Assembly (NCBI RefSeq): GCF_026914265.1
Contig: NC_069125.1
Location: 63,477,479 to 63,541,478 of the forward strand
DNA from: Mya arenaria
Taxonomy: Eukaryota > Mollusca > Bivalvia > Myida > Myidae
Direction of reading: 5' to 3'
Length of the DNA stretch: 64,000 nt
The notes below the pieces were generated by a model. It had not been told where the DNA came from. It saw only the letters and a list, made by a program, of their open reading frames with translations, and did no database searches. Positions 3,785-61,670 of the stretch are shown one piece after another; within the stretch, counting starts at the first letter, position 1; the number at the start of each line of letters is the position of its first letter. Made by a program: the position numbers and the translations under genes.

Positions 3785-4860
3785 GCACTCCCAGAATGAG
3801 ATAAGTACCATAGTGAGATAAGCACTATAGGTAGATAAGCACCGTAGTGTGTGGAAAGTGAGATAAAAACCATAGTACGATAAGTATTGTAGTGAGATAA
3901 CACACTGGGAGATATGTACTGTTGTTAGATAAACACCGTAGTGAGATGAATACCGCAGTTCTGTATTTCAGGTTCTGGTCCGCAGAGAAGTTCGTTCGTA
4001 AGATAAGTACCCCAGTGAGATATTTAGTACCATAGTGTGATGAGAACCATAAGAACCGTGGTAGGATGATTGTATTTGTGAGATAGGATGGTTAACGGAG
4101 TAACATAAGTACCATACTGAGATTAATACCATAGTAAGATAAGTATCGTATTGAGATGAGACACGTGATAGAATGGTTAACGCAGTGAGATAAGTACCAC
4201 AGTGAGTGAAGTACTATAGTGAGATAAGTACCGTAGTGAGATGAGAACCGTGATAGGATGGTTAACGCAGTGAGATAAGTACCACAGTGAGTAAAGTACT
4301 ATAGTGAGATAAGTACCGTATTGAGATGAGACACGTGATAGAATGGTTAACGCAGTGAGATAAGTACCACAGTGAGTGAAGTACTATAGTGAGATAAGTA
4401 CCGTAGTGAGATGAGAACCGTGATAGGATGGTTAAAGCAGTGAGATAAGTACCACAGTGAGTAAAATATGGTAGTGAGATGAGTACCGTAGTGAGATGAG
4501 AACCGTGATAGAATGGTTAACGTAGCGAGTTAAGTACCATAATGCGATTAGTACCGTAGTGATATTAGTACCGTAATCAGAAGGGTATCGTACGGATATA
4601 ATTATCGTTGTTGGAAAGTACCGTTGTGAGGTGAGCACCGAATGAGATAAGTACTTCAGTGAGATGAGTACTGTTATGAGACCAGTACCGTAGTTCAATA
4701 AGTACTTGGTTTGAGATGAGTATTGTTGTTCTCGGTTGTAAGATGAGCGTCGGATTAGATGAGTACTTTATTGAGATATGTTCTTATGTTGGCTATGTAT
4801 TGTTTGGAGCTGAGTACAGTGAGATGAGTATTGTTTTTTAAAGGAGTAAGATGCACGCTT
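3785..4860. repeat. 17-bp minisatellite (gtgagataagtaccgta) with higher-order unit
   Basis: Degenerate 17-bp units of the form 'agtgagataagtaccgt'. Between about 4150 and 4530 they are organised in a larger unit of roughly 85-100 bp marked by 'gatggttaacgcagtgag', repeated at least four times. Copies decay toward both edges. The array abuts the last recognisable exon of the PhyH-like pseudogene, so it lies where the next exon would be expected. Confidence 0.85.
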
Positions 4861-6898: not shown

Positions 6899-11439
<4,541 letters not shown>

Positions 11440-11483
11440 TTTGATGACTCGTTAGTTCTTCTTTACGAGTACCATCACTTGTT

Positions 11484-12626: not shown

Positions 12627-15600
12627 TCAGGAGCCTTTCATTGGTTGTTTGTAAACAGAGTTATATGCGTTACGTAGCAGGGCGTACGGGAAGCAGGATT
12701 CCAGCAGATCCATTGTCAGGAACGGTGACTCTTGAACTATCTGTAGGGTTTGAAATAAACAACAGGTTAGGGTATATTTCTCAAGCAAAAAAACAACAAC
12801 AGACAATAAACAGAACAGGCTATTTGTAATGAAACTATATAGGTTTATATAGCCAAATTTATCATCTTAAACTTGGTTAGAAGACACAAGAATCACTATT
12901 TAACTCTAAGAATATGATAATAATAAACATTGCTGACATTAAAATCTAATTCATGTACATGTTTTCGAAACTATGCATTAAGAAAGACTAAGCATCATAA
13001 TGTATAGTAAAGCTGGATGGCTAAGAATTCAACTCACTTGAGTGACTTCATATAAATTCCAACATAAAGAGTCTTCAAAAATCAAACTTACATAAAGAAA
13101 GCCTTTAAAAATCTATTTCAGTCCATTCTTACATAAAGAATGTCTACAAAAATCTTTTTAGTCATTTCTTACATAAAGAATGTCTTCAAAAAATATATTT
13201 CTGTCAATTCTTACATAAAGAATGTCTTCAAACATCTATTCATACATAAAGAATGTATTCAAAAGTCAGTTCTTACATAAAGAAAGTCTCTTCATAAATC
13301 AGTTTTAAATCACCTTACTGTCCCCAACATAAACCAAACCAAACCTTATCAAGGAGGAGATAGACAGACTCCCGATTCTTCACCGCCTCCTTCTCACTCT
13401 CCTGGCCCAGGCGTAACAGGCTTGATGATGCAAGCTGAAACACAGAGAGACTACCATTATTGTACATGGTGTTCATACAATCACACAGTACTATTAAACA
13501 CCTCATATCATAGTGAGAAAAAAAATCTTTCAGTGGATTCAATTTTGAGGCTTATGAGTACAGCCATTTTTTTTCAATTTGCACAATAACTGAACATTGA
13601 TTCCTTCTTTTCAGAATGCTTAAGTCTAAAATGATTCTTTTATTGAGAAAGAAAATTGAACAACAGCACAAACAGAGACCCATACCGCAAGGAACTCCTG
13701 CAGCCTCTGTTCGGTATCTCCAGGTCCATGCAGGTAGAACAGTGCCCCGGCAAGCTGGTTGATGGCCTTCGCAAGGCAGTGACAGTTGTTCAGATGGCCT
13801 GCAAGAATAATACACAAGTGCAGAATCCTTAAACAAGAGAATGTTTTCTTAGTTCACAAAATGGATAACTCGACATTTCAAACATGGTGCACATTTTCTT
13901 GATCAGCATTTGTACAACTTTCATGGGAATATCTATTGTCAGAAAGTTTAGGCACGATGCAAACAGTCACAATGCTGAAACACCTAGGCTATAACAATAC
14001 ATGACAACCTTGTTTAAAAAACAAATAAACTCAAGGCAAGCTTATAAAAAGGACATAGCATTAATTTAATACATCTTGCTTCAAATACATTGTGAAGATT
14101 TGAAAAGACACTTGAACATAGACACAACAAACATTTATCATTTTTCATGTTAAATACAACATTGTATTATCAAAAAATATTTTAAATGTAATTCCTTCAT
14201 TTCAAAAACAAATGTTTAATGTACATAATTAAAACCATACCTTCCACATTTGCCTTGAAGAACGAGCTGTCACTCCGAGCCAGTTTGGGGATGGACACAG
14301 CCACAAACACCATCAGCAGGCATGCTATGTCATACTCTGACTCCGCAAATTCTACAACAATAGAAACAATAATTTATCATGTTGCATCATTCATCCAAAA
14401 CACCATCAGCAGGCATGCTATGTCATACTCTGACTCCGCAAATTCTGCAACAATAATTTATCATGTTGCATCATTTATCCAAAACACCATCAGCAGGCAT
14501 GCTATGTAATACTCTGACTCCGCAAATTCTGCAACAATAGCAACAATAATTTATCATGTTGCATCATTCATCCAAAACACCATCAGCAGGCATGCTATGT
14601 CATACTCTGACTCCGCAAATTCTACAACAATAGCAACAATAATTTATCATGTTGCATAATTCATCCAAAACACCAGCAGCAGGCATGCTATGTAATACTC
14701 TGACTCCGCAAATTCTGCAACAATAGCAACAATAATTTATCATGTTGCATCATTCATCCAAAACACCATCAGCAGGCATGCTATGTAATACTCTGACTCC
14801 GCAAATTCTGCAACAATAGCAACAATAATTTATCATGTTGCATCATTCATCCAAAACACCATCAGCAGACATGCTATGTCATACTCTGACTCCGCAAATT
14901 CTGCAACAATAATTTATCATGTTGCATCATTCATCCAAAACACCATCAGCAGGCATGCTATGTCATACTCTGACTCCGCAAATTCTGCAACAATAGCAAC
15001 AATAATTTATCATGTTGCATCATTCATCCAAAACACCATCAGCAGGCATGCTATGTAATACTCTGACTCCGCAAATTCTGCAACAATAGCAACAATAATT
15101 TATCATGTTGCATCATTCATCCAAAACACCATCAGCAGGCATGCTATGTCATACTCTGACTCCGCAAATTCTGCAACAATAGCAACAATATTTTATCATG
15201 TTGCATCATTCATCCAAAACACCAGCAGCAGGCATGCTATGTCATACTCTGACTCCGCAAATTCTGCAACAATAGCAACAATAATTTATCATGTTGCATA
15301 ATTCATCCAAAACACCAGCAGCAGGCATGCTATGTCATACTCTGACTCCGCAAATTCTACAACAATAGAAACAATAATTTATCATGTTGCATCATTCATC
15401 CAAAACACCAGCAGCAGGCATGCTATGTCATACTCTGACTCCGCAAATTCTGCAACAATAGCAACAATAATTTATCATGTTGCATCATTCATCCAAAACA
15501 CCAGCAGCAGGCATGCTATGTCATACTCTGACTCCGCAAATTCTGCAACAATAGCAACAATAATTTATCATGTTGCATCATTCATCCAAAACACCATCAG

Positions 15601-18600
15601 CAGGCATGCTATGTAATACTCTGACTACGCAAATTCTGCAACAATAGCAACAATAATTTATCATGTTGCATCATTCATCCAAAACACCAGCAGCAGGCAT
15701 GCTATGTCATACTCTGACTCCGCAAATTCTGCAACAATAATTTATCATGTTGCATCATTCATCCATAACACCAGCAGCAGGCATGCTATGTCATACTCTG
15801 ACTCCGCAAATTCTACAACAATAGTAACAATAATTTATCATGTTGCATCATTCATCCAAAACACCAGCAGCAGACATGCTATGTCATACTCTGACTCCGC
15901 AAATTCTACAACAATAGCAACAATAATTTATCATGTTGCATCATTCATCCAAAACACCAGCAGCAGGCATGCTATGTCATACTCTGACTCCGCAAATTCT
16001 ACAACAATAGCAACAATAATTTATCATGTTGCATCATTCATCCAAAACACCATCAGCAGGCATGCTATGTCATACTCTGACTCCGCAAATTCTACAACAA
16101 TAGTAACAATAATTTATCATGTTGCATCATTCATCCAAAACACCAGCAGCAGACATGCTATGTCATACTCTGACTCCGCAAATTCTACAACAATAGCAAC
16201 AATAATTTATCATGTTGCATCATTCATCCAAAAAACCAGCAGCAGACATGCTATGTCATACTCTGACTCCGCAAATTCTACAACAATAGCAACAATAATT
16301 TATCATGTTGCATCATTCATCCAAAACACCAGCAGCAGGCATGCTATGTCATACTCTGACTCTGCAAATTCTACAACAATAGTAACAATAATTTATCATG
16401 TTGCATCATTCATCCATAACACCAGCAGCAGGCATGCTATGGTATGCTTTGTCATGTCATGCTATGTCATAATCCAACTATGCAAACTCTTTCTAATTTC
16501 AGGAAATTGTATTCCTGATTTGTTAAAGAGTTTGTTACAATTGACACAAACTGATGAATATTCATAACAATTAGACCCATTTACTAGTCACCCTGGACAA
16601 ACAAATTCATTTGGACTTAGATTCTATATATTCTTCTGTTAAACAAATTATCAAGGGCAGTCGTAATCTGATTTAAGTATCAAATAAAACAGGAATTTGT
16701 TCCATCTATAATAATGTACAGCAGCCATACTAAAATATTTCACTCTCCTGAAACTTGATAAGACTTTCAGCACATTATATTATATACAAAAAGAGAAAAG
16801 CTTATCCAAAAGCATTAACAAAAAGAGAAAAGCTAAGTTAGAGGCTGCACATACCACTCTTTTGTAGTCGGAGCACCTGGACGAGAACCGGGTCAATACT
16901 GCAGGGAAGGCCGGCAGCTGAAGCCAGCTCATTCACCATCTGAAACACATACATCTTGTACAGTTTACTTGATTCAAACATATCGGCCTAGTTGCCTGTT
17001 TTGGTCATCCATCATCTTGACATTTCCAGGGCAATGACTCAAGAGTAACATCGGCGATCTGACTGATAAACAATCTCAGTTGAGATAATGCCAATTAGCA
17101 TTGCAGCCAAGTTTTGTGAAGATTGGCTCTGAGCGTAAATCTAAATGAAGTGTGACACCGTGGTCGCGGACGATGACACCGTACGACATGATCACCATAG
17201 GTCTGCCATGCTGCGCAGGAAACACAATTAATTGAATAGTCATGTACCATTATCTACCACATTTAAAGTGACCCTCTTACTCAATGTCAATGCGTATAAC
17301 AAACATAATTTTTGACTGATAAACCTTTAACTACTTACTTAATAATGCATTTATGGAAAATATTATTTACTGATAACAAGATTGTAACTGTGTATTTAAA
17401 ATAGGTGAAAATGCAAAAATATTAAATGATTGGTGAATGCTAAAAGATTTACTGTGATCTACTATGATCTCAAATGGTTGAAATACTGTGTTTGATGTAC
17501 ATTTCTTTCAAATTAAAATAGGAATAATAAAACAATAGTATTAATTGTGGTTAATCTTATGCGGGAGTAAGAGTGCATCTTTAAATGAGGTTGAATGCTT
17601 ATTTTTCATCAACCACATAAAATGTACACATTAAGGATTTATATATTATAATATTGTGTTTAAAAAAGCTTTAATTTTTCTTTAAAATGTTTATGTAAAA
17701 TATACCATAAAAACCAGAAACATATTTAAAAAAAGATGCTCGGCTGTGGTAAACCAGCGTGATGATTAATGTCCAAATGATTTGAATGTTCGACATGTTA
17801 TAGAGATTGTTTTTGTTTTAATTGTTGTTTGTCAATTCCTGAGTATGTGCAGCTTTTTGAAAGGAATATCATAACCATGCTCAGTATTACAGAGTATTGC
17901 AATGTTTGACTAAACACACGTTTTTTCAATACTGACATGTTTTTACTCCTAAAAATGTAATGCATCAATAATTAGTTATTGAGAACATGAGTCTTTTAAA
18001 ATGACTTAAATAAAATATCATTTTAAAATAAATATTTGACAAACAAATAGTACATAATAAAACATAAAACAACTCTTCATACATTTTTCACGTTTACTAG
18101 TAAGAATTTCTTTTTTTTATATTAAGAAAATATTTAGACAGGCTTGATTCTTATTTCAAAGTCAATTTATTCTCTTTAATTATTCAATTTATATCTCAAG
18201 GCATTTCTGTCCCTTTGAACTCCTTCATGCTCTGGAGCCAAAGGCCGCGGACTGCTGACCAGACCCATCAGGGACCCCGTAGTCCCCTGGCCCCAAGCAT
18301 TTTTCCACTAATTGGTCAGCGCTTTAGCACGACCCAAAATGATGTTTGTTAAGCAGGTCTCAATGCAAGGATGGAAAACAAAGCAGGACACCAAAAAGCA
18401 ATCAAGTCTGAAAACAATGTGTATACTATTTTTAGCGTTTTACTCCTTGTGTTACCCTTTAAAAGATGATCCGTCTAAACTTTTCTGGAAAAATCGATTT
18501 TTAAATAAAAGACTAACAGCATGATAAAATAACGACATGAAAAATGCATTTTGATTCTGTGCATATCATTTCAGTCTTACTTCATGAATGTTGTCATTCA

Positions 18601-20404: not shown

Positions 20405-23400
20405 CTGCAAAATGAAGTACCACAGTGGATTAAACTCTGCAAATATAATGATTCGAGTATTTGGTGCAATGGCCAAAAAATGGTACTTAAAGAGCCTGCC
20501 TACCCCTACTCATTGCTAAACTTGAGAAAACAGAACAGAGACAATAACAGGCAGTCACTGGTCACCACATCTGCAGTTAAGAATTACAATAACAAAATCT
20601 GAACCTACCAATGGTCTATTATCTAAGTACAACCTGCATAAATTCATAAATAAGTGGCCATATTGTTGATGCATAATTAGAGCAAGTTGATTAAGAATCA
20701 ACCAAATTCACATTTAAAACTAAGCCAAATGCAGGTCTAAAGTGCTAAGGCACCTTTACTGGTCCAAAGATTCATGTCCCTACTTCATATTTAAGGTGTC
20801 CACCAAAAGCAATCATTGATTCCAAGCCTAAAACTGTAGGAAGTTACAACTACATAGTACAACAAACAGTGGTACCAGTTAATAATGGCAATAAAAGCAA
20901 TAAGTGGGTTCAAGTTCACAGGTAAAACAAGTGGTAAAAGTTAATAACTACAGCAATCAATGGCTTCAAGTTTACAGCTTAAACAAACACATGTCTTAAA
21001 GCTGCACTCTCACAGATATATTGTTCTTACAACTTTTTTTTAGCAGTCTTATATATCTGGTTTTCATGCATTTTCGCAAAAAAAATTTTTTTGTCAAAAC
21101 GTTCAATCTGTGAGAGTGCAGCTTTAAGTACATGTATATAGATGAAACAACCAGTGGTCTCCAACTGTGCATCTGCTTTTAACAGTTAACCAAGGGGCAT
21201 AACCTGACAAGTATATTAGCCAAAAATGAGGGACTTCCTACACATGAGGCAGATCCATGATGTACTGGTATGACACTTCAACAATAGCTCAGGGGTTGCA
21301 TATTTGATCCTATGCCTCAAAACTAAAATACTTAACTGGCTTCCGAGAGGGACTTCTCGGAGTGCTATGAATCACTGCTATACACTGGAGCACATTAAAG
21401 AACCAGTGGTAGCTCTATCTGCTTGTGCACTATGACCCATACATAACCTATCAAGACTGAAACTTTTCCAAGGGCCGCTGCATATGAACAGTCTAGTTGC
21501 ACCATCAGATAAATATCCACACATTGTTGCATATACATCTTACGTGCATTGTACCAAGTTTCAAATTTACAAAAAACAACAGACAAGCAAAAATGCCAGG
21601 TTTCACTGAATCAAACAGACAATGATTATTAACTTTTAAAAGCCAAAAACTGCTTATTTATTTAAAAGAATTACAGTATCAACATACGAATCAAAGGGTC
21701 CAGTTGCAAAGTAAGGGAGAGATATCAAGAAAGAAAAAGGGCAGATAATCTTGTACACATCATAACTATATTGATCCTATATAAAACTGTTTACGAATGA
21801 ATATACGGTACACATATATAAGACAGAAACCTTCTGTACACTGCAGATAAATTTCCTTTATAAATACAAAAGCAAATCAATTTAACACAAAGAATAATAA
21901 TTAAACCATTTTTTGAGATGGTGCATTTTGTCAATTATCTAATTGTATTTAAGCGAATGTTTGCAACATCAATCCCTGCACATAATTCTCATAATGGCAG
22001 ATGTTTGCAACATTACAACCAGCACCTCATCCTCATACTGGCAGATGTTTGAAACATTACAGCCATCACCTCATCCTCATACTGGCAGATGTTTTTAACA
22101 TTACAAACAGCACCTAATTCTCATACTGGCAGATTTGCGACATGAAAAACCAGCACCTAATTCCTCTTAATGGCAGATATTTGCAACATGAAAACCAGCA
22201 CCTAATTCTTCTTAATGGCAGATGTTTGCAACATGAAAACCAGCACCTCATCCACATACTGGCAGATATTTTCAACATTGCAACCAGCACCTCATCCTTA
22301 TACTGGCTAGGGATAATGCCCTAAAAGCTTACATGAAAGAAAGAAATTGTATTGTTGACTGTACGTCATCGATATCATCACAACCGGCTAGATATCAATG
22401 ACGCAAGGTAGATTGCCAGCCAAGTGACTGGCTACATTATCAATTGTGTTATACATGTGTAGATACAAGTTCAAATCTAAATCATGTACTAGTGTGTTGG
22501 CAGAAAGAGTGAATTCATGCCATGTATTCATACTTAGATGTCTTAAATACTTGAGCAATATGTTATCGAACAAAAAAGAAGGGATCAACAATGAATTCAT
22601 GCATATAAAATAAAAACAGATGCTACAGGCAGGGTAATATTGCTTTCAAATACCTCTTTCTGAATGCTTTTCTTTTGCTAAAATAATGAACAAAACAAAA
22701 TGAACATAAACAAATAAAACATCCTCTACTGCTCGACATATCAGAAGCAGGTCTAGCCTAGTTTTTACTGGCATCAACAGACATTTACAGCGTGTTAGCT
22801 GGTTGTCAAATATGCTGCAATAATCATAACCAACTGGTGACATTAACAATATTTGTCTCATAAATTCAGACTTCAACATACATGCATGTAATACAATTTT
22901 GTAAATACAAGTGTGTTTCCTCCGGGTACTCCGTTTCATCTCACAGCATGAGACCACACTCATAAAACACATGCTAATGAGAGTGATATATAAGCTGCAT
23001 CGCATAATTTTAGGCCTTCAGAGATATATTTGCTTTTATAATTTTGGGGTATTTGAATAAATGACATTTCAGGAAGTTATTCTGAACATTTCATGATGAT
23101 ATCACTTATATTGCGTAAGAAACATGTTTACAAGTGAACCATGCATTGCACATTTTAAATACTAAATTTGACATTATTCACATGACGTCATATTGACATA
23201 ACAAAAATACAATTTATTCAAATGACATGCAAAATTAATGTATCAATATTTCAACTAGCTTATAATTTAATTTTTATCTTAGCATGAATCTTTATGGAAC
23301 ATAAATCAAGAATAAAATAAGATTCAATTTTGTATTTTTAACACATTGGGCCGTTTAATCACAGATTATAAATGCAGTCAAAATAAGTCAGGACAAAATC

Positions 23401-29400: not shown

Positions 29401-32400
29401 TCATGGAATCTGTTCAAGAGAATTTGGTAATACAGCATCTCACAGCAAACATAATGTGGCACAATGAATATATAATATGAATCTTTTATTCCTTGAGAGA
29501 AGTTCTTGAACATAAAGAGGTGAATTCTTCAGGTATTAAAACGCACATTATGAACATTATGAACCAGACAATGACCACATTAAGACATCTAAAGCACTTC
29601 CCTATCTACACATGTACATGAACTATTAGTTACACTGTTAGTAGCTATAGGTGTACGGTATATACACCCTCAATGGTTTCATACCATAGTACCTTAAATT
29701 AGTAGCGGTATATGGATTACAAGGGGGGTATGGATTATACCCCCTCCACGTGATGGCTCTAGACCAATCGAATAGCATCATTTATGTAGGTGGTGAGATA
29801 TATGTTAGTTACCTGGTGAAATTTTCCCTGTTTTTGCGAGCACTCTCCTGGCCTGGTTTGACCACCTCCTTTGTGTCTCCACCCTTCTTCTTGTCCTTGC
29901 TGGGCTTCTTCTTCTGCGATGTCTGAACTGTGTGCTTTGGTAACAACTGTAAACACAATCTCAAAAGTTTACTTGACTGAAACTCAAGATTTCGACACAG
30001 TTTTTGATTGATTTATTAGAATTATCAACAATTTGAAGGCATGAAGAGGAATTCATGCCAAATACGATAAAGGAAAGTATGAGCTATAAGCATAGAATAA
30101 ACACATTAAATAACTCTTCAGATATAACCAATTGCTCTAGACAATAATATATCCATGTATGTGTGCTAAATTCCCCCAACCCTGCAGCCTACCTGGTAGT
30201 TGAGGAGGCAGTGCTCCTCGCAGATAGCTGTGATCACCTGGTTCACCTCCTCTGCCATGTCCTTAAGGAACCAGTGGGCATACTGTACACTTGTTGTGCC
30301 GATAGAGTGGCGCTGGAATTGAAAATAGTGAATGTCATGATCTCAAAAACTACAGAATAGTTAGGGCAAAATAGAAATGTTAAACATAGTCAACACTATG
30401 ATGAATAATAATCATTATATTAAAACCATTATCCAATCAAAATGGATGTCCTTGAGTTTTAGCTAATGTAGACATGCCTTGGTCAATTTACATATGCCCT
30501 AAATTCAACACAGATGAATTATTGGGTAAGACAAAAGTCGTCCAATTAAAATGCCATTGCTTATCATATAGAGGATACTTGTTTGTTACAGTGTAAGATA
30601 GCAAAATATTTTACCGAAAATGCACAAAAAGTTATTTTTACTTTTGGTGTTCATAAGTGGACTTAAATTGAAATAAGCAATTTTTCTTTTTTACTTAATG
30701 CTTTCATTTCATTAAAAATGATATTTATTTGACACTGAATTGGAAAACCGTGCAAAATTTTAGCTCAATGGCTTCGAATCTGACTTAATTGATTTTTCTT
30801 CCCAGCATATATCTTTATATTTGTTTCTTAAAGACAAGTGGGCCAATACTTCAGAAACAGTCAAATTTTATTTGGATTTTTTTTCAATTAACCACTGAAA
30901 GGCATGAAATAAAAGAATACAGACCATGGGATATGATTGTGAAGGTCAAAGTTATTCTGTTACCTCCTCCGGACACAGAGTGTGTGTGGCGTTCATGAAG
31001 TGACTGCAGATCATTGGGAAGACAACGCAGTATCGGTGCTGGGCAGGAAACTCCATACACTGCTTGAATTGGTTCTCAAACAATGTTGTATAGAAACTAA
31101 AAAACAACAATTAATAGGTACATTACATTTTGGGGAACGTCATTTCTGATAAAGCCATTTCCGGATGGGCATAGGAACAAAGCAAAATCTTTGCCTATAA
31201 GAACTTGCACTAAATCAGTGCATTCTGACTTTTTCAGGCATCAGGAACTACAACATACATTCCTTGTAAGCATTCTTTCTAAGTTATGGTTATTTAAAAG
31301 TAATAATATTCAACAACAGCTCAATAAAATACAACACATAAGCGTACCAGTATATGGAAAGGTCGGAGACTTCGTTAATGACTTCATCAAGGTCATCGAC
31401 CATGCGGGTGTGGAAGATGATTGTATTAATGTGTTTTGGGAGGTCCGTGTGGTCCTTCAACACCAGCCCTGCCTTGCTCACACTTGTGTATGCCTGCAAA
31501 TGTAGTTCAAGGGTTATTCATGAATCAAGAGTATTCCAGATGAGGTTACCACTGAGTATAAATGAGAGAGTATCCGTATTATCAAGCCTTTAATATTAAT
31601 CAAACGAAATTCAGTATTCTTTACATAAAATGTTCCTATATAACAGTAGTTGTAATGTGATGTATGTGTGTTACTTTTAAATAACTAAGTATGATCTACA
31701 TATACACAAACTCATTTACTTGTTATCACTGGTTGTCATTACAATAATCTATTTCAAACAACATAAACATGGCAAGCTGCAAGAAGTCCTATGTTCTGTC
31801 TAGAAAGAACCCACCTGTAGTCTGAACCAGTCCAGCCGCAGACCTCGGAAGTCAAACATCTCATTCTCCTCCACTGAAAACAGAGAGAACAGGAAATAAA
31901 CATGTAAGTGACGTGCTTACCCGCAAAGAAGAAATTCTCAAAGTTTTATAAATATCAAAGGGGCACAATAAAAGTAAATAATCAAAACAAAATAAGCATA
32001 TGATTTGTGGACAGATATAAAAAAGTATAAGCCTTTATAAATGGAGTTTTCAGTTAAAAGCTTAGAGGCCACAAATTCCGCATTTAAAAAAGGTGCCAAA
32101 ATATCGCTAATAAATTTTTGACCTGCAAACATATCAAATGCTTTTTCTTTTTTTTTGAACTGATCTTTTAAGTCCAATGAGTTAAACATAATAATGTATT
32201 AAAATTAACATTTCTTTTGTGCATCGATCAAGTGTAAAGCCATAGTGTGCCCTCCAAAACAATTATTTTGATTACAATTCTAGATAGCTAAACATTTCAC
32301 TTTACACTACATTTGCAAAATAAAACTTTCCGAGCAAAACTGTTTGCATCACATCCATACAAACAGCACTAACCAGCATAGCAGAACAGTATAAAAGTTC

Positions 32401-35400
32401 TACTAATGAATGTAAGTGCTGTATCAGTACTTGGATATACAGTTGAAGTTAAACCTACCTTGTCTGACTGTGAGGGAGGATATAGATGTGGAGAAGGAGG
32501 ACAGGATGATGGACTCGTCCTCTGGGCACATGTTCAGGTTCTGTAATGGTGTGAAGGGCAGTGAAAACAGAGCAGTTATATCTGTCAATGCTATTCACTA
32601 ACAGTGTAACTAAAATTCTTGTAATTACATCTACATCATGTATGAAACTACAGGGTAAGGATATGACTATGATTGTGTGACAAGGTTTCTAAATTCTGAT
32701 TTATTAATCGAGGACGAGCAAAAACAAAACTATTAACTTGAATACTGGATAAGAGTTATAATGCTTGCCACTGTGTACATTTTACAGACATACGAATCAA
32801 TGCTACACAGTACTTAGCCAATCATAGATACCACTGGATTTATTGCTTCCTACCATTTGTTACAATGGAAATGCACAATGTTTATAGGTGTCTTACTTGT
32901 ATAAGTTGGTTGAGAAGGACAGCATCATAGCCGGCAAGGTACTGGACATAGTATCGCTGCATCACTTGGTGGTACTTCTTCACCAGACCTGATCACCCAC
33001 ACACATACAGAGACATTCACTTTGTATTCACGTCATTGGAAATGTCAATAATGTTTTTCATATGGTATACAATCAACGAGCACCAGTTAAACTGTGGTAA
33101 ACAAAATATACAAAACATTGGTATTAAAACCGCACCATGTTTCTACTCAATTATTGAATATAAAAAGTTTGACATACAGAAAATACACTTGTCATTAGCC
33201 TTGTACTCACCTTTTAGTTCTTCTATGTAGAAAAGTAGCTCAGGTATTTGCCTGAAAAAGAGAAAAAAATATTCTTTAATTAATAAGAAATGAAAAAAGA
33301 TTAAAAGAAATGGAAAAATACAGTTGTTAAAGGGAAAGGTTTTCTTCTATGCCCAACAACAACAGTGTATACATATAGTTTCCAATGTAATATGAGCAAA
33401 GGTCCATGATCATCATTGGGGGGGGGGGGGCATTTTGTGAAGCTCTGATTAAATATATTTGTAGAATAACTTGTTTGAAGTCATTGGCAATAAACTGTGA
33501 CCATTGCTTTAAGAATTTATCTGGATAAGTCAACTATGACCACACAACACAAGACCACACTCTCGCGTAACATCGTGCCAATGAGAGTGACTTAGTATAA
33601 GTTATCATAACTTTCTTCGAAAAAAATCGTTGTAATATATACTGTTTAAACTAACTATGAGGGCCTCAGATATTTGAATCATTTATGGGTGAGATACAGC
33701 TAGTCCCTGAGACTGATCTCATTCCTTGTAACAACACTGGGGTGAAATGTTCTATTCAAAGATTACTTTAAACATATTTATTTTACAACAATTGTGAAAC
33801 AAGTTATTACAACATTATATTAATCACTCTCGTTGGCCTGATTTTGCGTGAGAGTGTGGTCTTTCAAAGATTATGAAATTTGGTTTGATTTTTCATTTCT
33901 AATTATTTTTTTCTTAAAGGTTTAAGTTTGCAATTCACAAATTCATATATGCATATTTAAATAATCTGGCATTACAACAAAGATAACCATTTACAACCTA
34001 AATTGTACCTACTTTTTCCCCATGTGAAGATGTAAACTATGAAACTACCTGTCCATAAAGTCCTCCTGGCTGATCTTCACATTGTGCCTGCGACTGGGCG
34101 GGTTCTGGTAGTGTCGGAGCAGCCAGTGCACCTCTGTCTGGGCCATGGAGAGGGCCTGCAGCACATACAGGGCTTTAGGGCCTAGCAGGCCCGGCTGGTC
34201 TGTGTAGATTAAGGACAATTCCCGCAGGGCCACACGCAGAAACTTACGCCGCTCCTTGTGAATTCCTGTCCTGAAAACCAGTTGGACAAATGGATATAAC
34301 ATGAAATGTGGATAAATAAATACATTGTTACTGTAAGTGTTCATGCATGTAGATAGCTTGTCATATCTGACCTACCAGGTTCACTCTAAAAGGTGAAAAA
34401 TTATTCATATTGAATTGTTCATACTTTTACCACTTAAATAAATTAAATTTTATTTATTCAAATGTTTTATGACTATTAAATTGGTTTTCCTTAGCAACAT
34501 AAAATGTTAATCAATAATGAATAAATATTTTTTTATTCATACTTTCAACACTTAAATAAATTAATTTATTAAAACATTTTATGACTAGTACCCGGTAGAC
34601 TGGTTTTCATGGGCAATATAAAATGTTACAAATGAATAAATTAAACTGCTCCTGATTCAATATGAGATAAGGGAAGGTCAGATATGTGCATAATATGGTA
34701 AAACCCATAACACACAATAACTTTTATGATACATAAAAGATATCAAGTTATAAATATAAATATAATTCTGGAAAGCAACTAGTACTAATTCAAACTGGCA
34801 AAATAAATAAAAACTGCATATTACTTTAAAATTATAAATATATGAAATATATTTAAAACATTGCTTGTTAATAACTCAGCAATACTGCTTCATGAGTGCA
34901 CATTAATCTTACTAAATCACTACAAATTATTCAACTTCTACACCGATCACCAGTATACAAGTCAAACCACTGCATGCATACATATACACTACTTTTTTCA
35001 ATGTTAAGAAACTTGAAATTAAACTTCAGAGTATGACAATGATATTATCTTCAAAATATATGTTTGCAAAATTTTCACAAAAAGATTACTAGCAACGATT
35101 GGCTTAAACACTAAGCTTCACACAGAAACAACAGCGCCAAATCACCATGAAATACTTACAAATTTCTGTAAAAGTTCAGAACAAAGTAAATAAAAACAAA
35201 AAAGAAATACAAACTACGTGCCCATAAATGATTGAATCATGCAACAGATATGTAAGCAAACCATTACAAAATCTACTGGCAAGATGCAGGATTTGTGTTC
35301 AAAATAAACTCTGAAGAACACATTAAGCTTGCAGAAAGAAAAACAATCACAAAAAACATAAGGTCTCTGAAGCTAGAAACTAATATTTATCAAAACCAAA

Positions 35401-51583: not shown

Positions 51584-51990
51584 CGTGCTGACACGACATT
51601 GGACATTCAAGAAATAAATAGGTCATTGGACATTCAATACATGAATGACGTTCTGGCACGACATTGGACATTCAAGAAATAAATAGGTCATTGGACATTC
51701 AATACATGAATGACGTTCTGGCACGACATTGGACATTCAAGAAATAAATAGGTCATTGGACATTCAATACATGAATGACGTTCTGGCACGACATTGGACA
51801 TTCAAGAAATAAATAGGTCATTGGACATTCAATACATGAATGACGTTCTGGGACGACATTGGACATTGACATTCAAAGGTGAATGTCATCATCGCGACGG
51901 GCACGACATTGGACATTTCACATTCATTTTCGAATGTCCAACGTCGTGCCATCAATCCACTCATCTTTTGAATGTCTAATGTTGTACGTT
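51584..51990. repeat. Right-arm 65-bp minisatellite
   Basis: Four nearly identical 65-bp units ('ggcacgacattggacattca' ... 'acatgaatgacgttct') followed by diverged units. These units are much more alike than those of the left arm, so this arm has been homogenised or expanded recently. Confidence 0.85.
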
Positions 51991-52375: not shown

Positions 52376-54350
52376 TCACTTTTAAGATTAAAAGGGGTGT
52401 TCTCTCCACCAGGTGCCAAAAATATGTTTCACAATCATTATATTTTTTTCTTCTGTAGCCTTCATTTGGCCCATAAAGGAGACCACGAACATAAGGCCAT
52501 CCTCATGGACCCGTACAGCATTCATAAACAGTAATATACAGTGTACATGCAATTATCAAATTACCGTAATTAAGTGCTTACGAAATCACATTTTAAACAA
52601 CAGTAAACAGAAAATTGACCATTTAAGAATTTGCGTAGATAACGCAACTTTAAAATTAATCATTAACTAGTAATTTCATGCATTACAAGAGGAAGTTAGA
52701 TGCACTACGCGGTTTAAAAGACTCAATAAAGGTAAACGTTCTGTGATGTGATTGAAATAAGCAAGGGTAATTAACTTGGATGGGTAATAGAGGTAAGTGT
52801 TTGATACGTAGGAAAATAACATAAACAAATCGGTCAATACAGTTATTTTTATATCAAGTTCAATTCTTTTCATAAATATATTTGACCTGAGAAGGATTGC
52901 GCGGCTTGGTCATAATTCAGAACATTGCTATCTTCGTCTCGTTTAGCTACTTCAAGCCGACCATGCATTACATTCAATGAAATCTGTTTTGATATTCGCT
53001 GTGCACTACTTGTTCTTAAATAAGGAATATTACAAAAAGGTGAGTTGTCCTATGTTTCTTGATATTATTCTGACAATTTTCCAGCAGGCCAATTGTAACC
53101 ATGGAAAAACAATATTTTAATTCTCATCCGGATTCAGAGATAGAGGTGGGATAGTATATATGTATTTTTTTCATTGTGTTTACTAGTAATCAAAGTTCTG
53201 AAAGTACTGCTGGAAGGTGATTTCATTAACATTACAGTTTTTCTTTATTAATGCTTTTTAAATAATATGGTCGACATTGACATTGATATATGTAAGGAAA
53301 ACAATTAAGTAAGCCCTTGGACATAAGGTTGGATCAAAAGACTACATGATGGACCAATGTATGGCTTAATTTATCCATACATTTTAAGAGAGAGATCACT
53401 CAAAATATATAAAACATATATTTTGAGACGGCCATATGCGAGAAACGGTTTCAAATATATTCTTCGGTAGTAAATTCGTATTATCAGGTAATATCCTGTA
53501 TTACGCTTAACCCGCATTTTGCCATGTTGTAACTCCATCCTATATATTTCAGTGTTTATTTAGAATGTTTACAAGATAATCCAAATATTTATTAATGTTC
53601 AATGAAACTCATTCAGCCTTTTATCATTTGCAATTGAGTAATCTATTTTAAGACTTTCAATCCAGGTTACTACTGGTAAGCAACTATTCTCTGCAGCATT
53701 CATTCACGATTTCAAACGTCGTGCCCTGATTCAGATATAAACCCTAGTAAAAAATATACCTGTAAAATAACAAGAATAGCGTTGATACATAGCACCACTC
53801 ACCAGACTGTTAATGGGCCCTTTAAAATGCTGGAAAAGTAGTTACATACATTTTTAAAATATGCGATATCTTCATTAAAATAGCCATTTCATTGTATACT
53901 AAGATTTAATTTAACACGAATACTTTTTTGATACACAACTCGATTACTTATGACAGTAATGAAGAGAATATGCACTTTAAAATGTGAAACTAATTAGCTG
54001 AAATCGTATGACTTTGATCCAGAAAGGAATCTAAGTGATTGCTATGGGGCTGATTATTGAATATTTGATCATTATTCCAAAACCGTATGTAACGTTTAAA
54101 TTTCGGTGTCGTTTCCCCGAATAACGACCCTTTCTCACACCGAAACAGATCGTGCTTTTGTAAATATTTTGATGTAGGCGGTTTCGAACAGGACCGCTCA
54201 TGGGTACCGAATGCGGCATCAACATCAATATATTTTCAACAATCCTAGAGCACCGTTAGCGTGGTTAGTTCTTATGACTATGTGGCTATAACTAATGTAT
54301 GATAATGCTTTTGTTTTATATTACATATTGATCTTTTTCTGGCCTTAGGA
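52376..54350. other. Upstream region of the nuclear receptor gene
   Basis: AT-rich, no repeat recognised. A short start-like segment at 53101-53145 (MEKQYFNSHPDSEIE followed by GTGGGA) does not join the first receptor exon in phase. An acceptor-like 'ccttag' stands two bases before the receptor ATG, so a non-coding upstream exon is likely somewhere here but cannot be placed. Confidence 0.4.
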
Positions 54351-57300
54351 ATGCTTGGTACCGAGACAATGGACGAAGGTACATTGGTCGATTCAAAGAC
54401 TCCGACACCAACTGGAATCTGCAGTCACGAACCGGTTGAAAAGACGGTTACGCCTCGTGAAGATGGAACCCGCGGGCGGAAGAGGAAGCAGTCCAAAGCG
54501 CGTCTGTTGGCGGGTGACAACATGCTGTTTCCGCCATGTAAGGTGTGCGGAAGGAGCGCCACAGGCTTCCATTTCGGCGTCATCACGTGCGAGGCGTGTA
54601 AGGTTGGGATTCGAGATGTGCATATTTTTTTCAAACCTGTTAAAGGGCAAAACCTGCGGATACAGTCTGCTTTACTGAAGAAAAACGTATTCCGAGAAAG
54701 GGATTAAATCATAATTGCAACGCTTTGTTTTTATGGAAAGATTTGTTTTAATAACAAATCGAACAAACCTCCTACCAAAGGTTATTGGTAGTCCGATACC
54801 AAAGTTCGACGTAATGTACACGCCAACAAAATTACAACTAACAACAACAACACCACAGCCAACCACAATCACCACCACAGTCAACACTTCTTCATAAAAA
54901 TCTATAACATCAACGTCACCCTAAGAAGTTGCAGCGATAGCATCACAATCATGTTTTATATCGTTTTGCATTTTAAGACCATGACATGTTTTATTCAACA
55001 ACTGTATCAAATAGGCACGATTAAAAATTCTAAATATATTGTAAAATATTGAATAACATCAATGACAGGATTGTTCAGTTTTTGCATGCAAACGTAATAT
55101 AACATCGTTCATCCACGTCAGGCGTTTTTCCGGCGCGCGTTGATCCACAAGCAGGCGTACATGTGCCTAGGAGACGGGAGCTGTGACGTCACAACTGCGG
55201 AACGGAAGTCGGTCATCTGCTCAGCCTGTAGACTCCAGAAGTGCATGACGCTCGGCATGAGCACGAACAGTAGGTATCTATTGGGTATATCCGCTACTTT
55301 AGCGATAGAGAATGGTTTTACTATTTACAAATATGAGTATACTTAAGGCTCAAAATTCTTACAATTTGTTACCGTATGAAATTAAAACGATAAATAATGT
55401 ATCCTATGTATTCATATGACATAAAGTTTGAAATATAAATATCTTTAATAGAAAACAGTCGTACCAGGTCGAGTAATTCAAATTGTAACTTAAATGAACC
55501 ATTCCCCCACTCCACCAGGTGTTCGAAAAGGTCGTTATTCGGTCGCGCTGAGGACACAGGCGATAGTGGAGGCAAAGACGCTGCGAGGGGAGGACCCAGG
55601 GGTAATGATAGCCACCCGATCTCCAATCCCGTCCTCGCGGGCTGCCGACACTACCCAGTCGTTAGAAGAGACAAAGAGGCATCGGGAAGAGGACACATGC
55701 CTTATGGTAGCTACCCGGTGTTCCCCGTCCCCGTCCTCACAAGTTGACGCCGTTAGCGAGGACGCACAGTCAATCGCTTGTTCAGAGGATAGACAAACAC
55801 GACCTGGGAAAGGCGTTCAATCACCATCGAGTAAATCGTTAACTTAATATTATTTTATTGCACGAGAACAAATAAGAATACGAATGCAAAATTTAACACA
55901 ATATTTAAACCGACATTATAAAATCGTAAATTGTAAATTTAGTACGCTGAAGTCTCTGAAATACTTGAACATATAGTGTTTACATCTGAAACTTATAATT
56001 CATAGGTATACAAGCGGTATTCGAGACGGATGCCTCTCCCGGAAGTATCAGCCAGATCCCGGATGCCCTGGAGCTGTCCGTAGAACGGTTCGTGCCGCTT
56101 GGGGAACTGGATCTGCTCATAGACACGCTGGTTTCGTGCCAGGATCTTGTGTACCCGAATATTCGCAGGCAGCTCGCGTTCTCCAGGGATATTCAACAAT
56201 GCCAGATAAAAACATATGTGTGTACGCTTTTTCGAAACAGTCTGTTGTTTCCCCAAGGTTTTACCTATGGCTCCATTCCGAGTAATAATAGTTGTAAATG
56301 CATGCTCCGTAGAGCATCATACTTATGAATTGAATGGAAAGACGTGAATATTCATCAATCTTCATTCGTTGATCAGTTGACCCACGCAGGGAAATCCGAC
56401 GAATGACTTGTCTTTGCTGCTTTGGGTTAAAATCACACTCTGAAACTCTTCATATAAAGATTTGATCTATTATCATCCAGATTGTTTATACCATTAAGGG
56501 ATATCTTTACGCATGTCGAACATATATACATGTAGAACAAAAATAAATAAACACGTTACGCAAAATTAATTGTCCCCATTTTGTCCGGTTTTCTACAGGA
56601 GGAATTAAAGGCAAAGAAGGAGATGTTCGCCCGTCTGTTCGGGGAGTCTAACGCGCCGACTACGGAGGAGTTTCAGACGATCTTCGCTGAGACGGGCATC
56701 GACGTTGACGACCGACTGGCCCACTTCAACATGAAGGGAAGACACATGGAGGCGACCATCGCGCAGAACATCAACTTCGTCAAGATCATCCCCGGCTTCC
56801 GGCACCTCTGCCCCCAAGACGTGTCCAAGCTCATAAAGGGTACGTTCGGGCACCGGTTAACCTGCCCCAATTTCACTGTTTTAACTTTTAACTGTAAAAA
56901 TATCAAATCGATATTTTTCACTGTTTTGAAATGTTTGCCCTTTCTCACGTCTAAATCAAACTTCAGCGCTAACAAGCCTTGGGCATAATTTCAACGACGT
57001 CATTTCCGAAATGACGTTACATTCGCATACAATTTGACGCACTTTCTCGTTTCTGGAAAACTACCATTAGGCATTAATGTCATTTTATAACCTGTGTATG
57101 CATATAATAAAAAAGAATTCAGCGTTAGGTCACAGTGTATATTACCTCACACCATAAGTGAAAGTTTAACTCATGGCTATGCCAACCATATAACTTTTGG
57201 TGCTCACTCGGTGAAATGTATTACGATCTTCCACTTAAACAAACTATTATCCTCTATATCACACTAAAGGTGCATTATGAAATACAATAAAAATAAAATG

Positions 57301-58526
57301 ACTATTTGCGGTATCGTTGTTTACTCGTTGTTTATCACATTGGCAGGTATCCTATTCCAAAGATTTAGAATTTAACTTGACCATGTATCCTGCAGCGTCT
57401 CATATGGAGTTCTGGCTGTTTGTTAACTACCTCCTGGTCAATAACAAACTTGGGCTTGCGGTCAGCTGTGACGGCTCCCGCTCATCCACCAAGGAGCAGA
57501 TCTGCAAGTTCTGGTGCTCCGAATGGGTGGACCGCTACTTCCGGTTCACGGATTCCCTGCACGCGCTCAGCCTCTCGGCCGAAGAGATCGCCCTGCTCAG
57601 GGTTATCATCCTGACGTTCACCGGTAATGAGGGAGACAAGGGTGTATATCAATTATGGGCTTATCGTATGGATACCTTAAGTTTTAATTTAATTGTGATG
57701 AAAAATGTACTCGTTAGTATCAGAAGAGGAAATTTGCTTGACCACATGTGAACACACCAACATTTTTATTCGCTTGAATCTTTCGAAAGAGGCTTGCGGG
57801 CTAAATTGATTTGAAAATATACTACTGATAATGGTTATTTAACTTATCTTATCAACCAATACTCGTTTGAAAACGTTCGATGTAGAGGATTTTGAAAACA
57901 TGGCAGAAGAGAAGATTCAATGCTTTATGGCCTTTATGATTCTAAGCATGGTATAAAGCTGATTTAAAGTTTCCTGTCATCTTGTTTTTGGGGAAACAGA
58001 AATTGAAAACGCACACATATGTTTACTGAGTTAACATGCGATCGAACCTGTAATTGAGAACATTATGGTAGTATTTTATCTTTTATATCCATTACCAACG
58101 AGCTCAACACTGTATTTATACGTAGTAATTACCATGATTTGTTTCCATTTAATTAATGGTCTGTGACGTTTTTGATGTCTGTGACGACTTATTATATCCC
58201 GATGTAATGCCGTAAAAGAAATGAAGTATGTAAACGTTAGTAAACCTTGCTGGCTCATCTTCGTCTTTACAGATAGATGTTCATTACTTAAGCCAGCTCC
58301 AATATCGGCACTGCAGGAGAAGTTTGTCGAATGTCTCCGCTACCAGATATCGAAGACGCAGCAAAATCCGGATACGCGTTTGCGCATGTTCATGGACCGC
58401 CTCCTGGCAGTGCGTGAACTCACGGAAATTAACATGCGAAGTAACCGGAAGTTCCTGCAGGAGTGGAACTTTGTCATCCAGGATTTCCCGCTCTGGTGGG
58501 AGATGCTGTCTTTCGATGAAATTTAG
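54351..58526 (+). CDS. Nuclear hormone receptor, NR1-like (557 aa)
   Basis: Seven coding exons: 54351-54602, 55122-55269, 55519-55830, 56006-56217, 56599-56839, 57369-57623 and 58273-58526. The DNA-binding domain (about residues 61-133) has first-finger Cys 63/66/80/83, P-box CEACKAFFRR, and second-finger Cys 99/105/117/120. The spacing C-x5-C-x11-C-x2-C is two residues longer than the usual x9. It is followed by QKCMTLGMSTNSVRKGR. A Ser/Arg-rich hinge (about 134-237) leads to a ligand-binding domain (about 239-557) with the NR1-like signature FVKIIPGFRHLCPQD and a C-terminal activation helix FPLWWEMLSFDEI. The receptor should act in the nucleus on hormone response elements. The ATG follows an acceptor-like site, so a 5' non-coding exon is probable. 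The donor of exon 4 (TAT|gtgtgt) and acceptor of exon 6 are the least certain borders. I infer a lophotrochozoan NR1 expansion member; the ligand is unknown. Confidence 0.88.
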
Positions 58527-58984: not shown

Positions 58985-59490
58985 GAACTGTTACGCCGAA
59001 TTTCGGTAGCGATGAGTAACCAACGTAATGCCGTATTTTGAAAGCGACGAGTCATCAATGTTATGCCGTATTTTGAAAGCGACGAGTCACCAATGTTATG
59101 CCTTATTTTGGGAGCGACGAGTCACCAATGTTATGCCGTATTTTGGAAGCGACGAGTCACCAATGTTATGCCGTATTTTGGAAGCGACGAGTCACCAATG
59201 TTATGCCATATTTTGAAAACGACGAGTCACCAATGTTACGCCGTATTTTCGTAGCGACGAGTCACCAATGGTAGCGCCGAGTCACTGATGGTTACGACGA
59301 ATCACAAATGTAATGCCATATTTTGATAGCGACGATACACCAATGTTACGCCGTATTTTGGTAGCGACGAGTCACCAATGGTAGCGACGAGTCACCAATG
59401 GTAGAGACGAGTCACCAATGGTAGAGACGAGTCACCAATGGTAGAGACGAGTCACTGATGGTTACGCCGTATTTTGGTAGCGACGGGTTA
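58985..59490. repeat. 35-bp minisatellite (gtattttgaaagcgacgagt)
   Basis: Units of 'ttatgccgtattttgaaagc' + 'gacgagtcaccaatg', shrinking to 20-bp units ('gtagagacgagtcaccaatg') at the right. The open frames on the plus strand are products of the repeat. Confidence 0.9.
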
Positions 59491-60349: not shown

Positions 60350-60830
60350 GAACCGTTACGCCGTATTTCGGTAGCGACGAGTAACCAATGAACCGCAGAA
60401 TTTTCGTAACGCCGTACTTTGGTAACGACGATTCACCAATGATACGCAGTATTCCGGTAACGAGTGACCCATGTTAAGCCGTATTTCGGCAGCGACGAGT
60501 CACCAATGTAACGCCGTATTCCGGTAGCGACGAGTCACCAATGAAACGCCGTATTCCGGTAGCAACGAGTCACCAATGAAACGCCGTATTCCGGTAGCGA
60601 CAAGTCACCAATGTTTCGCCTTATTCCGGTAGCGAAGAGTCAAAAATTGATACACCATATAATTCCGGTAGCGACGGGTCACTGATGGTAGCGACGGGTC
60701 ACTGATGGTAGCGACGAGTCACTGATGGTAGCGACGGGTCACTGATGGTAGCGACGAGTCACCAATGTAACGCCGTGTTTTGGAAGCCACGATTCACCAA
60801 TGTTATCGACGATGCTTGTGGTCGCTACCG
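60350..60830. repeat. Minisatellite, second copy of the duplicated unit
   Basis: Same family as 58985-59490: 'gtattccggtagcgacgagt' + 'caccaatgaaacgcc', then 19-bp units 'ggtagcgacgggtcactgat'. Confidence 0.9.
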
Positions 60831-61453: not shown

Positions 61454-61670
61454 TGGAAAATGACCACATTACTGACCTGGTCTGTGAGAATGACCACATT
61501 ACTGACCTGGTCTGTAATAATGACCACATTACTGACCTGGTCTGTGAGAATGACCACATTACTATCCTGGTCTGTGAGAATGACCACATTACTGACCTGG
61601 TCTGTGAGAATGACCACATTACTGACCCGGTCTGTGAGAATGACCACATTACTGACCTGGTCTGTTTCAA
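61454..61670. repeat. 30-bp minisatellite (aatgaccacattactgacct)
   Basis: Seven to eight almost identical 30-bp units ('aatgaccacattactgacct' + 'ggtctgtgag'). Because 30 is a multiple of three, frames stay open on both strands (e.g. MTTLLTWSVR), but this is a consequence of the repeat. Confidence 0.95.

Follow-up and report, generated by a model that had tools for sequence, protein, structure and literature searches.

Tandem duplications of an exon-intron boundary, named 'mirages', have been described in the Adh3, troponin C (TnC), globin and PGBD5 genes of amphioxus (lancelets) (PMC3087553, PMC3902484; these and all papers below are cited from excerpts). Here we describe an array of comparable design in a 64,000-nt stretch of the genome of the clam Mya arenaria (contig NC_069125.1; hereafter the window), where a splice acceptor of NCKAP1 and the start of the exon behind it are repeated within the gene's own intron. 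In amphioxus, the mirage of the globin gene BflGb6 is built from units of 150-160 bp that join the 3' end of an intron to the 5' part of an exon, and two haplotypes carry 6 and 3 of them; this mirage was apparently assembled aberrantly in the draft genome, and somatic instability was detected for the Adh3 mirage (PMC3087553). The Adh3 data and reverse-transcription PCR of globin transcripts suggest that regular splicing is unaffected by mirages (PMC3087553), and the mirages of Adh and TnC are reported to produce no aberrant mRNAs (PMC3902484). Mirages have also been proposed as an origin of new introns (PMC3087553).

The NCKAP1 unit likewise consists of an intron 3' end and an exon 5' part. 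The array differs from the amphioxus cases in its 23-24 copies of 93 or 84 bp, as against the few longer units of BflGb6 and the 10-72 bp units of Adh3, and in its gene, the amphioxus mirages lying in the globin genes BflGb6 and BflGb9 and in Adh3, TnC and PGBD5 (PMC3087553, PMC3902484). It has the structural marks of a mirage, namely a boundary-spanning unit, a retained splice signal and the authentic boundary at one end, and it appears to be a large member of a class already described and named. Among the matches listed in a search of open-licence literature there was no boundary-spanning array outside amphioxus, a result that does not establish their absence; a paper on clam haemoglobin (PMC4732748), seen in excerpt, had no relevance to the array. 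We consider it likely that the NCKAP1 array is a long mirage minisatellite in which the boundary was duplicated, expanded and homogenised, and whose copies stay within the intron and leave splicing largely unaffected.

An exon boundary of NCKAP1 is repeated within its own intron

The exon at the array matches Nck-associated protein 1 (PDB 3p8c_B, E 1.5e-5), and most of human NCKAP1 (1128 aa) is covered by ordered minus-strand tblastn matches running from 43365 to 12630, in agreement with the gene name given in the initial annotation. The human query agrees over its full length with the PDB 3p8c_B chain. Its residues ~319-336 and ~629-668 found no clean placement, hence the number 'exon 29' that the array exon had received is unconfirmed. 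Translation showed that the reading phase is kept from the upstream exon into the functional array exon. The upstream exon does end at 16855, where the initial annotation had placed its donor, but the donor itself begins one position on. A comparison of the NCKAP1 exon at 34048-34266 with bacterial and archaeal genome contigs gave 70 pattern-matched stretches, 0 of which encodes a relative, and a 24-nt exact unit pattern had 0 matches in viral contigs; both results are expected for an animal nuclear gene.

Tandem Repeats Finder, run on the window, reported a tandem array at 14305-16441 (period 93, 23.3 copies, 95% matches, score 3777). A scan for the boundary TTG[CT]AG/AATTTGC (the slash marks the splice site) gave 23 matches on the minus strand, which is that of the gene: 22 decoys, whose exon starts run from 16370 to 14444, and the functional acceptor, with its exon start at 14351. 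Neighbouring acceptors are spaced by 93 bp in 19 of the 22 intervals and by 84 bp in the other 3. Alignment of the units showed that all 23 copies combine 46 nt of intron 3' end with 47 nt of exon start (45 nt had been proposed), and that the three 84-bp units are short of 9 bp beside the acceptor. The acceptor AG is present in 23/23 matches, including every decoy; the scan pattern itself requires AG, and since all 22 intervals measure 93 or 84 bp, no complete unit was missed.

Outside the last complete unit lies a degenerate copy, which matches the unit exactly over 24 nt (16441-16418) and again at 27 of 33 positions (16490-16458; score 36, a value reached by 0 of 2000 shuffles, the best of which scored 30). 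Four stretches farther upstream in the same intron did not resemble the unit significantly (71 to 444 of 500 shuffles were as good). The total is thus 24 copies, made up of the functional one, 22 complete decoys and the degenerate one. This upholds the earlier count of 24 units for an array of the NCKAP1 boundary, while the roughly 23 decoys then proposed come to 22 complete ones and a remainder that is degenerate. The array takes up ~2090 nt of an intron of 2503 nt (16854-14352), and NCKAP1 exons lie on both sides of it. The authentic boundary is the last unit at one array end: the first 47 nt of the functional exon (14351-14305) complete this unit, and the 23rd copy alone continues into the real exon, to 14241, as had been noted from the start (Table 1). 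Self-comparison of the window revealed no other repeated NCKAP1 exon boundary among 31 exon intervals with approximate ends, of which that at 29780-29946 is partly guessed.

Table 1. Components of the NCKAP1 array and the exons on either side of it (window coordinates)
Feature	Position	Strand	Basis
NCKAP1 exon upstream of the array, ending ...QKS + G; donor GTATGT from 16854	16855..16939	-	tblastn, donor scan, translation
Degenerate copy at the outer edge, limited to the exon-derived part and containing ~26 extra nt	16417..16490	-	unit matches and shuffles
22 complete decoys, 19 of them 93 bp and 3 of them 84 bp long: intron 3' end, acceptor and first 47 nt of exon	14398..16416	-	Tandem Repeats Finder, pattern scan, unit alignment
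Last 46 nt of the intron, in the functional copy, with TTGTAG at the end	14352..14397	-	unit alignment
Functional NCKAP1 exon, 111 nt; donor GTATGG from 14240	14241..14351	-	PDB 3p8c_B match, tblastn, donor scan, translation

Decoy acceptors are intact, and their use would lead to a stop

The decoys are not weakened as acceptors: AG is kept in 22/22, and 13/22 score above the functional site. Scores were taken from a table built from 27 other NCKAP1 acceptors (leave-one-out mean 6.26, range 0.53 to 13.95). On this scale the functional acceptor, TTGTAG, reaches 5.88, a value equalled or exceeded by 4.6% of the gene's 1581 other AGs. The 13 decoys that score higher are those with TTGCAG, as the initial annotation had suspected; 1 is equal and 8 are lower. 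Four other AGs in the same intron score at least as high as the functional acceptor, and one of them, at 16361, lies inside the outermost complete unit. There, a G-to-A change in the exon-derived part has created an acceptor-like TTTGCAG/AG, with a score of 7.97, above that of the functional site.

Whichever decoy the upstream exon is joined to, an in-frame stop follows within that decoy's unit (22/22 joins), which bears out the prediction that the decoys start in phase and then terminate. The stop follows ...NDAT or ...NYAT in 21 joins and comes already after FA in 1, and the stops fall upstream of later exon junctions. The exon that results from decoy use would measure 204 nt for the nearest decoy and 2130 nt for the farthest.

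Donors were scored with a table of 25 donors picked in the gene (leave-one-out median 7.34, range 1.2 to 10.6). The real donor, itself part of the table, scores 9.92, and the next best donor-like site between the array and the exon end scores 5.30. This weaker site, present 16 nt past the acceptor in 17 decoys as well as in the functional exon, would define an exon of 16 nt. A complete exon and a strong donor directly follow the last acceptor only. A recursive (ratcheting) splice site was considered and rejected, as the boundary reads AG/AATTTG in 23/23 copies and does not regenerate a donor. A 281-nt piece of the array, roughly three units long, showed no unusual RNA fold (z 0.57; folding was equal or better in 145 of 200 shuffles). 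On the plus strand, 316 codons can be read without a stop antisense to about nine units (15617-16567), since both unit lengths, 93 and 84, are divisible by three; this open frame is probably a by-product.

Variation among the units

In the unit alignment, 12 of the 93 columns are variable, and the two parts of the unit are similarly diverse, with 0.027 in the intron-derived part (23 units) and 0.033 in the exon-derived part (22 decoys). The exon-derived parts of the decoys contain amino-acid-changing variants and one stop variant: 12/22 encode Leu in place of the Met of the functional copy and of human NCKAP1, and Asp is changed to Tyr in 5/22. By codon position, variable sites number 3 of 15 at the first, 0 of 16 at the second and 4 of 16 at the third. 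No constraint on the exon-derived part of the decoys was visible, in what is, with 12 variable columns, a weak test. Against the array consensus, the functional copy has 3 differences in 93 positions. A T at unit column 34 is common to unit 12 and the functional copy only, a pattern consistent with exchange of sequence along the array, between copies and exon.

How the array may arise and be spliced

The anatomy suggests that tandem duplication of a 93-bp stretch across the intron/exon boundary was followed by growth and homogenisation of the array to 23-24 copies, probably by unequal exchange or slippage, so that the functional boundary would now be the last copy of the expanded array. An origin from a transposable element was set aside because the unit is the gene's own boundary, a reasoning from unit make-up. 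The decoy copies are most likely carried as intron, with little effect on splicing. Behind so long an intron, the functional exon is probably recognised across the exon; such exon definition is plausible because the flanking introns measure 2503 nt upstream and 442 nt downstream, the usual limit being ~250 nt. The last acceptor would be favoured by its complete exon and strong donor within 111 nt, whereas the decoys offer 47 nt of exon and no good donor. If one of the nearest decoys were used now and then, the mRNA would be prone to nonsense-mediated decay, in our view a minor leak and not a regulated output. Splice sites closest to each other across the exon are stated to be favoured under exon definition (PMC9225289).

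Several points weigh against a splicing-neutral array. Where human 3' splice sites compete at a distance of at least 20 nt, the upstream one is preferred, and with long introns on both sides this preference was significantly reduced, not shown to be reversed (PMC9225289). The nearest decoy could compete with the real site, because the 204-nt exon it would define is of ordinary length and its acceptor scores higher (7.53 vs 5.88). For the amphioxus mirages, too, it was pointed out that repeated AG/GT signals could act as cryptic sites and give aberrant transcripts (PMC3087553). As to the history of the array, 12 variable columns out of 93 do not allow neutrality to be tested strongly, and the divergence of units rises only weakly with their distance (r 0.12; 558 of 5000 permutations were as high); therefore local spread of variants is not demonstrated.

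One alternative is a copy-number dial, in which decoys compete with the real acceptor, the truncated transcripts decay and array length sets NCKAP1 output. The higher scores of 13 decoys and the stops that lie ahead of later exon junctions in all 22 joins are what such a dial would call for. NCKAP1 is, however, a core subunit of the WAVE complex, and heavy loss of it would be selected against; nor is constraint on the decoys visible, though the test is weak. The general preference for upstream acceptors in human data (PMC9225289) speaks for a dial, as does the intronic minisatellite (variable number tandem repeat, VNTR; 38-nt unit) of block 6 in intron 6 of hTERT, which resembles the NCKAP1 array in lying in a coding gene and shifts splicing only above a minimal repeat number (PMC6562651). 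Unlike the NCKAP1 array, with its lack of an unusual fold, the hTERT repeat was proposed to act by RNA:RNA pairing, and the excerpt does not describe it as a copy of an exon boundary (PMC6562651). Against a dial stand the amphioxus arrays, reported in the excerpts without disturbance of splicing (PMC3087553, PMC3902484). On balance we hold a dial to be improbable, and a splicing-neutral satellite appears better supported than tuning of NCKAP1 output by copy number.

An array could also act without any decoy being used, if splice factors bound to its many acceptors held the intron back and thereby lowered or timed mature NCKAP1 mRNA. Decoy exons resemble exons and have a splice site at either end. 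They can cause intron retention, and the NCKAP1 array, with 22 decoy acceptors, shares with the decoy exons of OGT and SF3B1 the presence of non-productive splice sites within an intron (PMC8706089). It differs from them in that its acceptors are followed by no better than a weak donor-like site, 16 nt behind the acceptor and below the real donor in score, and we regard retention of this type as improbable. Tandem arrays are frequently misassembled, and the germline array may in truth be much shorter or differ widely between alleles, the assembled length being an artefact or a somatic or allelic expansion. The apparent misassembly of the BflGb6 mirage and the instability of that in Adh3 (PMC3087553) are precedents. 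Of the 22 acceptor-to-acceptor units, however, 18 are distinct, with differing combinations of variants, which argues against simple assembly duplication; we hold this explanation, too, to be improbable.

The array is an unusually long natural test of how the spliceosome chooses one acceptor among many near-identical ones. Proximity to the upstream donor favours the decoys, acceptor score favours 13 of the 22, and exon context favours the real site; the interest of the locus lies in the length of the array, in these higher-scoring decoys and in the direct contrast of exon context with proximity and strength. The array also shows the start of a coding exon drawn into minisatellite turnover. In a broader view, which we hold improbable, 22 near-identical acceptors ahead of an exon of a core actin regulator, 13 of them scoring higher than the real one, are either ignored or serve as a copy-number dial, and exchange between array and exon makes the array a reservoir of coding variants (Leu/Met, Tyr/Asp) that conversion could write into the protein, possibly as the first such case outside lancelets.

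Other features of the window

The window has a GC content of 36.3%, and Rfam at gathering scores and a tRNA scan gave no match across its whole length. Tandem Repeats Finder reported further minisatellites with units of 17-85 bp at 2421-2929, 4082-4694, 13087-13289, 21957-22307, 51584-51867, 58989-59469, 60354-60803 and 61459-61665; in the self-comparison with approximate exon ends, no NCKAP1 exon boundary was seen repeated in any of them. Judged by eye from their translations, neighbouring open frames at 7243-11451 (minus strand) look like a cytochrome P450 (CYP4-like), and those at 54306-58526 (plus strand) like a nuclear receptor.
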